Source: Thiopseudomonas denitrificans (GTDB taxonomy: Bacteria; Pseudomonadota; Gammaproteobacteria; Pseudomonadales; Pseudomonadaceae). From it: a DNA stretch of 64,000 bases. The notes under the pieces were generated by a model. It saw nothing but the letters and a program-made list of their open reading frames with translations. It was not told the DNA's origin and ran no database searches. A program made the translations under genes and the position numbers. Position 1 is the first letter of the stretch. Every line of letters starts with the position of its first letter. Positions 50,582 through 55,157 of the stretch are shown here, piece by piece. The stretch covers positions 230,144-294,143 of the forward strand of contig NZ_LNJZ01000005.1 of NCBI RefSeq assembly GCF_002866065.1, read 5' to 3'.

Positions 50582-51774
50582 GGGATGTCCCTCCGTACCG
50601 GTTGTTCCCTGATCGGCAGGTTGAGCAGCGCGGCGATCAGGCTGAGAACGATCGACACCTGCCACACCAGGTCATAGCTGCCGCTCTGGTCATACACCCA
50701 GCCGCCCAGCCAGCCGCCGGCAAAGGAGCCCAGCTGGTGGAACAGAAAGGCGATGCCGGCCAGCATCGACAGGTGCTGTACGCCAAACAGCGTGGCAATG
50801 GTGCCGTTGGTCAGCGGCACCGTCGACAGCCAGAGCAGCCCCATGGTGATGCCGAACAGGTAAGCGGAAGTTTCGCTCAATGGCAGGAAGATGAACAGGC
50901 TGATCACGATTGAACGGCTGAAATACAGGATGGCCAGCAGTCGGGGTTTGGCGAAACGTCCGCCGAGCCAGCCGGCAACCCAGGTGCCGGCAATGTTGAA
51001 CAGGCCGACCAGTGCCAGCACCATGGTCCCGGTTTGTGCCGACAGCTGCTGGTCGATCAGGTAGGACGGAATGTGTACTCCGATGAACACCACCTGGAAA
51101 CCGCACACGAAATAACCCAGTGACAGCCACCAGAACGGCTTGTGCCGGCCCGCCTCCAGCAATGCGGCACCCAGCGCCTGGCGCTGTCCGCCGCTGCCAT
51201 CGTGTAGCGGTTTTTCCCGCAACAACGGCACCAGCGGCACGATCAGCATGATCAGCATGGCGCAGGCCAGCAGCGCTGCCGACCAGCCCAGCCACTCGAT
51301 CAGCCCGAGGGTGCCCGGCAGCATGGCGAACTGGCCGAATGAGCCGGCGGCACTGGCAATACCCATGGCCATGCTGCGTTTTTCCGGGGCAACGCTGCGC
51401 CCGACCACTGACAGCAGCACAGCGAAGGAAGTACCGGACAGGCCGAATCCGATCAGCAGGCCGGTACTCAGGTAAAGGACGCCGGGCGAGGAAGCGACCG
51501 ACATCAGCGCCAGCCCGGCAACGTAGGCCAGCGCGGTGACCAGTACGGTCGGGCGCACCCCGTAGCGGTCGGCAAAGGCACCGGCAAAGGGCTGCACCAA
51601 CCCCCAGACCAGGTTTTGCAGGGCAATGGCAAAAGCAAAGGTTTCCCGTCCCCAGCCGAACTCCAGGCTCATCGGCTGCAGGAACAGGCCAAAGGCATGA
51701 CGCACGCCAAGCGACAGGGCAAGAATGATGGCGCAGCCCGGCAGCAGCCAGCGGGTACTGTGATGAAATTTCAT
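50554..51774 (-). CDS. MFS transporter (monocarboxylate/oxalate-type)
   Basis: 406-aa permease with twelve predicted TM segments. The start HAFGLFLQPMSLEFGWGRETFA (range about 26-47) and the motif-A-like FAGAFADRYGVRPT (about 63) are typical of the OFA/MCT-like branch of the major facilitator superfamily, and the C-half repeat reads GWLGGRFAKPRLL. It is divergent from the transglycosylase gene. Close relation to monocarboxylate carriers suggests organic-acid transport; the substrate is not known. Confidence 0.85.
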   Translation of the reverse strand: MKFHHSTRWLLPGCAIILALSLGVRHAFGLFLQPMSLEFGWGRETFAFAIALQNLVWGLVQPFAGAFADRYGVRPTVLVTALAYVAGLALMSVASSPGVLYLSTGLLIGFGLSGTSFAVLLSVVGRSVAPEKRSMAMGIASAAGSFGQFAMLPGTLGLIEWLGWSAALLACAMLIMLIVPLVPLLREKPLHDGSGGQRQALGAALLEAGRHKPFWWLSLGYFVCGFQVVFIGVHIPSYLIDQQLSAQTGTMVLALVGLFNIAGTWVAGWLGGRFAKPRLLAILYFSRSIVISLFIFLPLSETSAYLFGITMGLLWLSTVPLTNGTIATLFGVQHLSMLAGIAFLFHQLGSFAGGWLGGWVYDQSGSYDLVWQVSIVLSLIAALLNLPIREQPVRRDIPCANSLSTS

Positions 51775-52063
51775 GGTGTTTTCCTGTAATGCAGCAGCAG
51801 AGGTTAAACCAAAACAGGCCGATTGTCTGTGTGCAGCTGCCGGGCGGGTCTGTTGGTGTTGCTGTCGGATGTGTATCATTTATGTCCGGCTGTGCTGCGG
51901 GGCTGTTGCATGCAGCAGGCAGATGGCAGGACAGGGTAAACTTGTCATGTACAAAGGTGATCTGGTTCAACATCCGGGCTGGCAAAATCAGGTAAGTTGT
52001 CAGCCGGTATCTGGGCAGGCATGCGGCGTGCGAATTCAGGACACAGGGGGCAAAACGGAAGCG

Positions 52064-52912
52064 ATGATAACGGATAACAGGAACAGATTTTGTCTGGCCA
52101 TGCTCTTGCTGGTCTCGGCGACTGCCCTGTCTGCTGCCGAGCGGCGCAGCATCATTGCGCCGGGAGTGGAGAAGATCATCCATGCCAACGGCACGGTGGA
52201 ATACCGCCAGGTGGCAATCCCCGAACCGGCAGGGGAAACCGCTGCAGCAACGGCAATGGCGGTACCGGCGGCAGCACCCGGCAACCTGCCGGAAGCCCCG
52301 CCTGCAGCATCGGCAAAAACCACTTCGCAGCCGGTGACACAGGCTGTGGTCCCGGCACCGCAGCTCAAGATCTACAAGTTTCGTGACAAGAATGGCGTGG
52401 TTACCTACCAGAGCAGGGCGCCCGGTGGCGGCCTGGCATACACCGAATTCAAGCCGCGCCCCGACTGCTTCGCCTGCGCCACCGGCTCCGGGGTCAACTG
52501 GGAAACCACCCCCCTGTTTGCCGGCCGTTACGAGCAGGAAATCCTTCACCATGCCAATCTGCACGGCATCAGTCCTGCGCTGGTCAAGGCAGTCATCCAT
52601 GCCGAATCGGCTTTCAATCCGCAGGCCCGTTCCAGGGTTGGAGCCCAGGGCCTGATGCAGTTGATGCCGGCCACGGCAGCCGAGCTGGGTGTAGCCAGCC
52701 CGTTTGACCCGGCACAGAATATCGATGGCGGTGTGCGTTACCTGGCGATGCTGATGAAGATGTACAACCAGGACGTGCGACTGGCAACTGCCGCCTACAA
52801 TGCCGGGCCGGGAGCGGTGCGGCGTTACAACGGTGTTCCGGCCTACCCGGAAACCCGGGCCTATGTGCAGCGGGTCGCCATTCTCGAGCGTCGTTACCGC
52901 CAGGGCAACTGA
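52064..52912 (+). CDS. Lytic transglycosylase with N-terminal DUF4124
   Basis: 282-aa exported murein-cleaving enzyme. Signal peptide (FCLAMLLLVSATALSA), Pro/Ala-rich linker (about 55-95), a DUF4124-like segment KIYKFRDKNGVVTYQSRAPGG (about 103-123), and a C-terminal SLT domain (about 155-280). The catalytic Glu lies in IHAESAFNPQA (about 180), with GLMQLMPATAAELGV and ATAAYNAGPGAVRRY. The start at 52064 is preferred; the frame is open far upstream. It is convergent with the FtsZ-like gene across a terminator. Confidence 0.88.
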   Translation: MITDNRNRFCLAMLLLVSATALSAAERRSIIAPGVEKIIHANGTVEYRQVAIPEPAGETAAATAMAVPAAAPGNLPEAPPAASAKTTSQPVTQAVVPAPQLKIYKFRDKNGVVTYQSRAPGGGLAYTEFKPRPDCFACATGSGVNWETTPLFAGRYEQEILHHANLHGISPALVKAVIHAESAFNPQARSRVGAQGLMQLMPATAAELGVASPFDPAQNIDGGVRYLAMLMKMYNQDVRLATAAYNAGPGAVRRYNGVPAYPETRAYVQRVAILERRYRQGN

Positions 52913-52956
52913 CCGCAGCCTTGCCGGCGCTGCCGGCACATCGAATCCATGGATAC

Positions 52957-52985
52957 AAAAACGGCAGCCCGGGGGCTGCCGTTTC
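52957..52985. terminator. Bidirectional terminator after the transglycosylase
   Basis: AAAAACGGCAGCCC-GGGGGCTGCCGTTT forms a strong hairpin between the convergent transglycosylase and FtsZ-like genes. Confidence 0.88.
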
Positions 52986-53001
52986 TACCATCCGGAACCG
53001 C

Positions 53002-53553
53002 TCACTCCGCCAGCAACTTTTGCACGTCAACGGCAATGTCGGCCGAGGCCTTGTTGTAATAATCGAGCAGGGCCTTGCCGGGCTGCAGGGCTTTGGCATG
53101 GTCATGCAGGATGAGCCTGATGTTTTTCTTTTCCAGCAAGGCCAGTGCTTCCTGTGCTGCGGCGCGTTGCGGCTTTTCAAAATCAAAGGGCAGGGTGGCG
53201 ACCATGATCACTTCGATTCCCATCTCCAGCGCCAGGTCAACAATCACCGGTGAGGCACCGCTGGCAGTACCGCCACCCAGACCGGTCAGCAGGATCAGGC
53301 GGTCGGCACCGCGAATGGAGTAGCGCAGGTCTTCCAGGGACTCTTCTGCCGCCAGCTGGCCGCGGTGTACTGACTGGGCCGGTTTGCCTTCGCAGCTGCT
53401 GGCACCGATTTGCAGGCGCTGGTCAAAGGGGCTGGAGGCCAGTGTTGCAGCATTGGTGTTGACCGCCAGAATGTCGCAGCCCAGCTCCTGCTTGACGCGG
53501 CTGGCAATGTTCATGCCGGCGCCGCCCAAGCCCATTACTAGAGTTTTACGCAT
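53002..53553 (-). CDS. Short FtsZ-like GTPase-domain protein, lacking the T7 loop and C-terminal domain
   Basis: 183-aa protein resembling only the nucleotide-binding half of FtsZ/tubulin. T1 loop GLGGAGMN (residues 8-15), T2-like ILAVNTNAATL (28-38), T3-like RLQIGAS (46-52), tubulin/FtsZ signature LGGGTASGASPVI (92-104; FtsZ has GGGTGTG), and T5-like ATLPFDFE (119-126). A C-terminal helix LLDYYNKASADIAVDVQKLL (162-181) corresponds to the start of core helix H7. Absent are the catalytic T7 loop and the whole second domain. GGAGG eight bases before the ATG supports expression. It cannot be the cell's main FtsZ. The function is unknown; capping or modulating FtsZ is a hypothesis. Confidence 0.85.
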   Translation of the reverse strand: MRKTLVMGLGGAGMNIASRVKQELGCDILAVNTNAATLASSPFDQRLQIGASSCEGKPAQSVHRGQLAAEESLEDLRYSIRGADRLILLTGLGGGTASGASPVIVDLALEMGIEVIMVATLPFDFEKPQRAAAQEALALLEKKNIRLILHDHAKALQPGKALLDYYNKASADIAVDVQKLLAE

Positions 53554-53769
53554 GGAAAACCTCCAACAGGGATAAAAGAATGTACAAACGCCGTAAAGTG
53601 CCTGGCGTTATTTCGGATACCGATACCAGCTCTGTGGCCGTCCGGTGTGCCAGGCCGGACATGATGCGGGCGTGTGCCGCCCGTCGGACCCTGGTGCCGC
53701 AGCTGCAGATAAAATCGGCACATCATTTTCCGGCTAACATAAGCGAAGGGCGGCTTGATGTAAATACTA

Positions 53770-54246
53770 TCAATGGCTTGCCGGCGGCGGGGTAGCCCGT
53801 TCCGGCTCGACCACCAGCAGCCCGCCGTCAACGGCAGTCACCACCACGGGCAGGCCTTCGCTCAATGCAGCGCTGTTGCAGACGGCGGCGTAGGTGCTGT
53901 CTTCCAGATATACCCGCCCCTGGCCGTGTACAAATGCCTGGCTGACGCGGGCGCTCCGGCCGATAAAGCCTTCCAGCCCCAGATTGAGGGACTGCGGTTG
54001 CCGGTGCAGCAGTTTTTTCTGCCACTTGAGGCCGGCAGCGACCGCAATGCAGATGCTGGCCGCCAGTGCCAGCAGTTGCCAGGCCGGATCAGCCCCGGGT
54101 ACCAGCAGCAGGAACAGGCCGACCAGTGCTGCGCCGAGCCCGAGCCAGATCAGGAAAATCCCGGGAATGATGATTTCCAGGATCAGCAACAGTGCGGCGG
54201 CAATCAGCCAGTACCAGTGCGAGGCAAAAATCAGCTCAAGCATCAT
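53770..54246 (-). CDS. NfeD family membrane protein
   Basis: 158-aa protein with TM helices at about residues 11-30, 34-52 and 56-74 and a C-terminal OB-fold NfeD domain (about 88-150: GLEGFIGRSARVSQAF, GRVYLEDSTYAAVCNSA, GLPVVVTAVDGGLLVVEP). It partners SPFH proteins in membrane quality control. Its ATG lies inside the stop of the SPFH gene, so the two are coupled. It lacks the N-terminal ClpP-like protease of long NfeD forms. Confidence 0.9.
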   Translation of the reverse strand: MMLELIFASHWYWLIAAALLLILEIIIPGIFLIWLGLGAALVGLFLLLVPGADPAWQLLALAASICIAVAAGLKWQKKLLHRQPQSLNLGLEGFIGRSARVSQAFVHGQGRVYLEDSTYAAVCNSAALSEGLPVVVTAVDGGLLVVEPERATPPPASH

Positions 54247-55157
54247 TTGGCCTGCGTATTCTTCAGCAGTTCGGTGATGCCGGCGACTGCACCAGTGACA
54301 CCGGAGGCTTCCAGCGGCATCAGCACCAGCTTGCTGTTGTCACCCTGGCCGATCTGCTGCAGGGCTTCGACATACTTGATGCCGAGAAAGTATTGCAGCG
54401 CCTGCACATCGCCCTCGCTGATTGCCTGCGACACCACGCGGGTGGCCTTGGCTTCGGCCAGAGCCTCACGCTCGCGGGCCTCGGCATTGAGGAAGGCGGC
54501 TTCTTTTTCGCCCTGGGCCTGCAGCACCTGTGCTTCACGCTGACCCTGCGCCTGCAATACGGCGGCTTCCTTGTCACCATTGGCCTTGGTAACCACGGCG
54601 CGGCGGTGGCGTTCGGCGGTCATCTGCAGGTTCATCGCTTCCTGCAGCTCGGGTGACATGCTCAGGTCGCGGATCTCGATGCGGGTGACCTTGATGCCCC
54701 AGGGCGTGGTGGCCAGGTCAACGGCAGCCAGCAGGCGCTCGTTGATCTCCTCGCGATTGGACAGCATGTGGTCCAGCTCCATCGAACCCAGCACCGAACG
54801 CAGGTTGGTAATGGTCAGGTTGACGATGGCATAGGTCAGGTTGTTGACCTGATAGGCGGCCTTGGCGGCCTCCATGATGCGGTAGAACACCACGCCGTCG
54901 GCGGTGACGGCGGCGTTGTCCTTGGAAATCACGGTTTGCGAGGGGACGTCCAGCACCGACTCCATCATTGACAGGCGAAAGCCGATGCGGTCAACAAAGG
55001 GAATGATCAGGTTCAGGCCCGGCTCCAGTGTCGCGGTGTAGCGGCCGAAGCGCTCGACCGTCCACTGCTGGCCCTGGGGGACCACCTTGACACCGGCAAA
55101 GAAAAACACCACAACCAGTGCCAGCAAGACGGCAAAGAAGGGAAGTAACGCATCCAT
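54243..55157 (-). CDS. SPFH/Band 7 membrane scaffold, QmcA-like
   Basis: 304-aa stomatin-like protein. N-terminal TM helix (about 5-23), then the SPFH domain: VVPQGQQWTVERFGRYTATLEPGLNLIIPFVDRIG (range about 26-60), the TTPWGIKVTRIEIRDL block (about 152-167), and an Ala/Glu/Gln-rich coiled coil (about 180-245, DKEAAVLQAQGQREAQVLQAQGEKEAAFLNAEA region) that drives oligomerisation. QmcA in E. coli forms membrane microdomain assemblies. It is in operon with nfeD. Confidence 0.92.
   Translation of the reverse strand: MDALLPFFAVLLALVVVFFFAGVKVVPQGQQWTVERFGRYTATLEPGLNLIIPFVDRIGFRLSMMESVLDVPSQTVISKDNAAVTADGVVFYRIMEAAKAAYQVNNLTYAIVNLTITNLRSVLGSMELDHMLSNREEINERLLAAVDLATTPWGIKVTRIEIRDLSMSPELQEAMNLQMTAERHRRAVVTKANGDKEAAVLQAQGQREAQVLQAQGEKEAAFLNAEAREREALAEAKATRVVSQAISEGDVQALQYFLGIKYVEALQQIGQGDNSKLVLMPLEASGVTGAVAGITELLKNTQAK

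Follow-up and report, generated by a model that had tools for sequence, protein, structure and literature searches.

FtsZ and tubulin are two-domain proteins in which the second domain of a neighbouring subunit completes the GTPase site. In the FtsZ first domain, loops T1 to T4 contact the phosphates and T5 the ribose, and T6 contributes to guanine binding (excerpts of PMC8936486). The two subdomains are able to fold independently (excerpts of PMC7320174), and the C-terminal one starts at residue 201 in E. coli (excerpts of PMC7010359). An FtsZ-like N-terminal domain is also found in the FtsZl1 family (Makarova and Koonin 2010, PMC2875224), which the excerpted text of PMC9871819 treats as Tubulin_2. 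We found no description of a first-domain-only FtsZ form in the open-access literature searched. Here we report such a form, encoded within a 64,000-nucleotide stretch of the Thiopseudomonas denitrificans genome (contig NZ_LNJZ01000005.1, positions 230,144 to 294,143), the whole of which is called the window below. We tentatively read it as a stand-alone FtsZ N-terminal domain encoded by a selected gene, that is, a binding module with one face only, which depends on nucleotide, does not polymerise and has changed its base recognition. This reading rests on an FtsZ nucleotide fold complete with helix H7, on the lack of T7 and the C-terminal domain, on purifying selection, on a conserved promoter and a terminator, and on an intact FtsZ in the same genome. 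The gene and the parts of its product that matter most are as follows.

53002..53553, minus strand: short FtsZ gene, 183 amino acids, N-terminal nucleotide-binding subdomain plus core helix H7 (from the open reading frame (ORF), Pfam and the structure model)
53509..53532, minus strand: T1 loop GLGGAGMN, residues 8-15, the same in all four genus members
53257..53283, minus strand: T4 G-box GLGGGTASG, residues 91-99 (from the alignment)
53095..53103, minus strand: DHA at the position of the FtsZ guanine loop T6 (PN, then E or D), residues 151-153 (from the alignment)
53008..53070, minus strand: core helix H7, residues 162-182, the protein ending before T7 (from the model)

The reading frame runs from an ATG start to a TGA stop with no internal stop, and the 183-residue FtsZ-like protein that had been proposed for it was confirmed far above chance. 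Indeed, it matched Pfam Tubulin (PF00091) over residues 5-143 with an E-value of 5.6e-20 (72.9 bits, above the cut-off of 33) and solved FtsZ chains with a best E-value of 2.1e-23. The NCBI ftsZ equivalog TIGR00065 gave an E-value of 1.3e-28, its 100.3 bits lying below the cut-off of 295.2. Tubulin_2 (PF13809) gave 13.4 bits against a cut-off of 27 (E 0.046), which places the protein outside that family, and the phage tubulin model phrog_4733 (E 6.1e-6) was far weaker than the ftsZ model. The AlphaFold2 model had a mean predicted local distance difference test score (pLDDT) of 79.7 and a predicted template-modelling score of 0.81, and VIA-align superposed it on residues 10-199 of E. coli FtsZ (6umk) with a Z-score of 26.8 and a root-mean-square deviation of 1.9 A over 182 residues at 33% identity. 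The best 50 structure matches listed were all FtsZ, and the viral structure matches were PhuZ-type phage tubulins of the same superfamily, so the structural comparison by which the FtsZ-like fold was to be judged came out in its favour. Judged by its sequence, the short protein belongs to the FtsZ/tubulin superfamily but is neither FtsZ proper nor FtsZl1. Since the alignment reaches E. coli residue 199 and the C-terminal subdomain begins at 201, the stop falls at the C-terminal end of H7 (model helix 162-182), on the domain border, and not within H7 as first described. Because FtsZ subdomains fold independently, a stable short protein is plausible.

The short form was present in all four Thiopseudomonas genomes examined and ended at the same place, within two residues, in each of them, which upholds the view that it lacks T7 without being a recent truncation. 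The ratio of nonsynonymous to synonymous substitution rates (dN/dS) was 0.123, 0.082 and 0.134 in three of the six genus pairs, the other three being saturated at synonymous sites. Identity to the three genus relatives was 86, 83 and 74% for the short protein, 92, 86 and 78% for FtsZ, 76, 63 and 58% for NfeD and 65, 67 and 55% for the neighbouring transglycosylase. On this pattern of substitutions, the short frame is under purifying selection. Moreover, in trees the group to which the gene belongs (the four genus members and two relatives from other genomes, G413 and G165) was separate from all sampled FtsZ, with support of 100/99 in one tree and 99/99 in a second. A recent truncation was therefore ruled out by dN/dS, by the common end in four of four genomes and by the separate tree group. 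The lack of half of FtsZ could still suggest a decaying truncated copy without function, but a dN/dS near 0.1, the shared end, a conserved promoter, an FtsZ-like level of conservation and the position of the group apart from FtsZ make this very improbable, and we consider it refuted on present evidence.

The same genome encodes, on another contig, a full-length FtsZ of 398 amino acids with the T7 sequence NVDFAD and the C-terminal peptide DYLDIPAFLRRQAD. A match to FtsZ_C was found exactly once per genome in all six genomes that hold a form of this group, and in the window genome it is this full FtsZ. A split FtsZ with its C-terminal half encoded elsewhere was thus ruled out.

Conservation of the short form across Pseudomonadaceae was not supported: a second FtsZ match was found in none of 55 other genomes of the family, two of which had no match at all. 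Larger and overlapping samples comprised 369 genomes of the class, 398 of the phylum, 390 of the order, 77 relatives of G413 and 76 of G165; match counts for class, phylum and order are counts among the matches listed, only eight or nine first-look candidates having been scored in many genomes. The re-examination covered 44 mostly multi-match genomes, of which stretches of eight were fetched, and left out 17 multi-match genomes (14 of the phylum sample, and G477, G522 and G538). At least eight scattered short relatives of 185-200 amino acids were found elsewhere in Pseudomonadota, namely G413, G165 and six that fall in other groups: G690 (199 amino acids), G616 (196), G658 (197), G559 (192), G710 (200) and G1198 (185). 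In the alignment all six stop inside H7 or shortly beyond it; four reached or passed the Pfam Tubulin cut-off, and G710 and G1198 lay just below it. Short FtsZ proteins form a class scattered through Pseudomonadota, for which our counts are lower bounds, and Thiopseudomonas was the sole place in the sample where the short form was seen in every species examined. G1076 and G1094 each have a second FtsZ-like gene (frames of 338 and 352 amino acids), and these two genes stand outside this count.

When the genus profile was run on the 369 class genomes, the best match outside the genus, among the matches listed, was G413 with 122.9 bits, the best FtsZ scoring 95; G165 scored 84.4 bits, below many FtsZ. 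The placement of G165 in the group is instead due to the trees and to a reciprocal search of 229 class genomes, the listed genomes including that of the window and neither G413 nor the other genus members. In this search the best non-self match of G165 was the window's gene (77.6 bits, residues 3-187), all others scoring 65.4 bits or less and the FtsZ of the window genome 54.7. A second group, comprising G710, G616, G559, G690 and G658, had support of 98/90. The tree did not join all 12 short forms in a single clade (three changes would be needed) and such a clade was not rejected (approximately unbiased test, p-AU 0.269), so that on these sequences a single origin is neither shown nor rejected. 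In the tree to which a degenerate relative from G082 was added, the six group forms need two changes. The trees used 25 or 19 of the 47 FtsZ rows of our alignment and contain long branches, which carry a risk of false joins.

Several other matches were set aside or stand apart. The 180-residue frame of G052, at a contig end, is an ordinary FtsZ with PN at T6 that adjoins an ftsA-like frame; G070 and G444 likewise have their matches at contig ends. Two scans of viral contigs yielded no relative. In several tblastn searches of plasmids and phages the named features were, among the matches listed, FtsZ or FtsZ-like, many records being unannotated; of the other such searches, one gave two weak partial matches and the rest none. 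An Aeromonas caviae match on a plasmid-labelled record was rejected as ordinary FtsZ in a division cluster: the record, pKAM479_3 (locus L053, 5911-7062, plus strand), measures 4.9 Mb and looks like a misfiled chromosome. A Marinomonas plasmid (L054, 4328-6909, plus strand) carries a full-length FtsZ-like gene of 320 amino acids that overlaps a PcfJ-domain gene near an HsdR gene. In G311 (L114, 4320-5291, plus strand) we observed a protein of 323 amino acids with a hydrophobic N-terminal stretch, recognised by eye, followed by an FtsZ-like domain that ends after H7 and lacks T7; its sequence suggests a short form that is anchored in the membrane.

Residues were counted in an alignment of the six group forms with 47 FtsZ sequences, a number that excludes pieces below 340 amino acids and the plasmid FtsZ-like gene; L001 was left out as a copy of L040. 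The E. coli numbering was obtained through an offset from the Aeromonas FtsZ of L053 which we take to be correct and which agrees with the structure-alignment ranges, and the guanine-contact residues were identified by number on our own assumption. The short FtsZ carries T1 (GLGGAGMN), T2 (VNTN), T4 (GGGTASG) and T5 (TLPFDFE) in the FtsZ order, as originally predicted, T3 being only loosely kept: the FtsZ sequence GAGANP has become a shorter GKPAQS stretch, and T3 is shortened in all six group forms. The T4 glycines 91, 93, 94 and 99 and the T5 residues T120, P122, F123 and E126 are kept in six of six, as are the equivalents of FtsZ L178 and of R142 (R130 here, R143 in S. aureus). At T6, PN is found in 47/47 FtsZ; all six group forms have DH followed by Ala there, and this DHA loop is absent from the six short forms of other groups. 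In H7, D187 (36/47 FtsZ) is replaced by A, A, A, E, E and R. Conservation of the nucleotide loops, on which the prediction depended, thus holds largely for T1, T4 and T5 and fails for T3 and T6. The pocket seems, from these residues, to be kept for phosphate and ribose and altered for the base. The protein may still act as a GTP sensor, the other role first suggested for it: its loops for phosphate and ribose are largely preserved, though the one for guanine is replaced.

We suggest that nucleotide binding would take place through T1, T4 and T5, the loops for phosphate and ribose that the protein has kept. It lacks T7 and so should not complete the GTPase site of another copy, which, given established FtsZ biochemistry, makes FtsZ-type self-filaments and hydrolysis unexpected; copies of the short protein would supply no T7 loop for such hydrolysis. 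With T6 rebuilt to DHA and D187 lost, base recognition has probably changed, so that the ligand may be something other than GTP, or may sit differently in the pocket. The nucleotide face would then be presented to a partner in a nucleotide-dependent manner, FtsZ being the likeliest single candidate. Several observations weigh against this interpretation. The T1 Asn is kept in four of the six group forms, being Ser in G413 and G165, and the T4 Thr is Ala in G413. The structure model was built on an alignment of only the four genus sequences, and its poorest part is the T3 region, where residues 52-59 have a pLDDT below 50. Furthermore, T4 reads GLGGVIGTW or similar in the second short-form group, and T6 reads ND in four of the six short forms of other groups, so that neither nucleotide binding nor the DHA loop can be generalised to all short FtsZ proteins.

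A more specific version is that the DHA loop holds a nucleotide other than GTP and that the loaded form docks on the growing end of FtsZ. We regard this as distinctly improbable, although, if it were true, cell division would be read out against that nucleotide, by a regulator derived from the same domain on which it acts and representing one branch of the scattered first-domain-only class. To our knowledge, nucleotide specificity is otherwise very stable in the FtsZ/tubulin superfamily, and the invariant replacement of the guanine loop in this group suggests a ligand change within it. In the broader interpretation of a one-faced binding module, selected genes of this kind would separate nucleotide binding from assembly and permit a direct test of the isolated domain on filaments.

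The original prediction went further and suggested that the protein could offer one filament face, by which it might cap or poison FtsZ filaments. In such a case the short protein would attach by its nucleotide face to the bottom face of FtsZ, where T7 is exposed at the growing end, and would stop growth there, as MciZ, SulA and Gp0.4 do at that face. The nucleotide domain is kept and the protein lacks a T7 of its own, so any such contact would be one-sided. In the excerpts of PMC8936486, bottom capping lowers filament growth in a model, and phage Gp0.4 is placed at the same FtsZ face by prediction and mutants in those of PMC13423816. The L178 and R142 equivalents in six of six group forms and a largely kept T5 are compatible with docking. 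However, of the four contact regions that the excerpts of PMC8936486 name, three are altered: T3 in six of six forms, the H6-H7 loop (shorter by three) in four of six, and D45 and Q47 in H2. The two latter residues are found in 47/47 FtsZ. In the group forms, D45 has given way to Asn in the genus (all four members) and to Glu in G165, G413 keeping the Asp, and Q47 is kept in none, being A, D, E or K. Among the key nucleotide-domain residues of S. aureus FtsZ listed in the same source (D46, Q48 and R143), D46A stops assembly, which counts against a cap given the Asn of the genus, while Q48A still assembles, so that the lost Q47 is alone no bar. The genus FtsZ (four sequences) has an ordinary T7 loop, which is in favour of a cap; on the other side, none of its five fixed changes relative to 16 family FtsZ sequences lies in T7. 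The filament face thus appears, on sequence grounds, mostly unlike that of FtsZ: of the predicted face the R143 equivalent survives in six of six forms, D46 is Asp in one, Q48 is kept in none, and T3 is shortened. The changes at D45, Q47 and T3 weaken the capping idea, which we hold to be rather unlikely.

The surroundings of the relatives are varied. In L052 (6593-7797, minus strand) the G165 gene overlaps by four bases an ORF of 179 amino acids that is GIY-YIG-like by eye and has no Pfam match; hsdM (cut by the fetched stretch), hsdS and a RhuM-Fic gene precede, and the G165 gene is convergent to hsdR. In L112 (5408-7672) the G1198 gene overlaps an ORF of 221 amino acids without a Pfam match, and a WYL-domain regulator is divergent. 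The G690 gene (L108, 1297-4744, minus strand) follows, by 38 bases, an AAA+ gene of 701 amino acids, and precedes an AbrB/PIN toxin-antitoxin-like pair (by eye). In L036 (4193-5455, plus strand) there are tandem ORFs of 216 and 196 amino acids, the first a weak Tubulin match below the cut-off and the second apparently related, by eye; both have twin-arginine signal-like N-termini (by eye), and their neighbours are a Hsp70/MreB-like gene, a YgjP-type metallopeptidase and a type I restriction R-subunit.

These contexts bear on another explanation, that short FtsZ genes are mobile accessories of conflict or defence which sense or counter phages or plasmids and of which one was fixed in Thiopseudomonas. 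The scattered distribution is in its favour, as are the hsdR, hsdS and hsdM genes and the overlapping small ORF at the G165 gene, the small ORF and divergent WYL-domain regulator at the G1198 gene, the partial PADLOC IetA and TRIP13 matches of the AAA+ gene before the G690 gene, and the type I R-subunit gene near the degenerate 216-residue relative of G082. Such an origin is nonetheless unlikely. PADLOC gave no family for P0001, P0002 and P0003 at an E-value of 0.1 nor for P0005 at 0.01, and a single weak match for P0004 (E 0.0014); AAA+ and WYL matches are common; no restriction genes were seen by eye among the ORFs near the G413 gene; no relative appeared in the two viral contig scans; and the gene keeps to one chromosomal location in all four Thiopseudomonas genomes. 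Our estimate for this explanation rests on the scattered distribution and on the relatives' restriction, WYL and AAA+ neighbours, and not on the window, where the gene is flanked by the following features.

53560..53564, minus strand: ribosome-binding site GGAGG (read from the sequence)
53736..53764, minus strand: promoter TTTACA - 17 nt - TATGTT, hexamers and spacing the same in four of four genus members
52957..52986, minus strand: terminator hairpin followed by a T run (-28 kcal/mol, z -4.0)
53770..54246, minus strand: NfeD (PF01957), upstream neighbour (from Pfam)
54243..55157, minus strand: SPFH/Band 7 protein (PF01145), upstream neighbour (from Pfam)
51773..52912, plus strand (opposite to the gene): SLT-domain lytic transglycosylase (PF01464), convergent neighbour (from Pfam)

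The strong ribosome site and intact frame of the original prediction hold, the latter also in view of purifying selection, and so does the absence of a C-terminal remnant downstream, the hairpin lying after the stop and the transglycosylase ending at 52912; the hairpin was absent from the output of a separate pattern scan. The promoter sits between NfeD and the gene, in an intergenic stretch whose alignment has a mean column identity of 52% in four genomes. It implies a leader of about 170-180 bases (window 53554-53736), the sequence of which is poorly conserved between species, and no Rfam family reached the gathering score across 52900-53800, leader included.

SPFH-NfeD directly upstream and the convergent transglycosylase flank the gene in four of four genus members, so that the neighbours are indeed kept within the genus. 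This constant upstream pair could mean that the short protein works in membrane organisation together with the SPFH-NfeD scaffold, as could the hydrophobic N-terminus (by eye) before the FtsZ domain of the G311 relative. Yet between NfeD and the gene lies a conserved promoter belonging to the latter, and adjacency is therefore not in itself a sign of shared function. In addition, genera that lack the short gene also have SPFH homologues, NfeD follows SPFH and precedes an opposite-strand gene in the one such case inspected (L079), and no SPFH or NfeD gene was seen by eye among the ORFs beside the G413 or G165 gene. We judge a scaffold partner to be quite unlikely. The emphasis once laid on envelope neighbours is correct as to their presence in four of four genomes and weak as evidence for a role at the envelope, given the separate promoter and a transglycosylase on the other strand.

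Compared with described systems, the short protein shares with MciZ, SulA and Gp0.4, which bind the T7 face, a possible mode of action only; these are small proteins but not FtsZ domains, according to the excerpts of PMC8936486 and PMC13423816. PhuZ (phrog_4733) belongs to the same tubulin superfamily and is a full-length phage protein, as against 183 amino acids here. The FtsZ of Nitrosopumilus maritimus, an organism with CDV proteins, does not polymerise and in this resembles the state we propose, although the excerpts of PMC3684127 do not describe it as ending after H7. FtsZl1 resembles the short protein in having the FtsZ-like N-terminal domain and lacking the C-terminal domain of FtsZ; in the excerpts of PMC2875224 and PMC9871819, however, FtsZl1 includes a coiled coil plus a helical C-terminal domain and no recognisable T6-H7, whereas the short protein has T6-H7 and nothing after it. 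Residues 10-199 of E. coli FtsZ have the same fold, the same T1-T2-T4-T5 order and the same helix H7; relative to that FtsZ, at 33% identity, the short protein lacks T7, the C-terminal subdomain and the C-terminal peptide, has a shortened T3, and reads DHA at T6.
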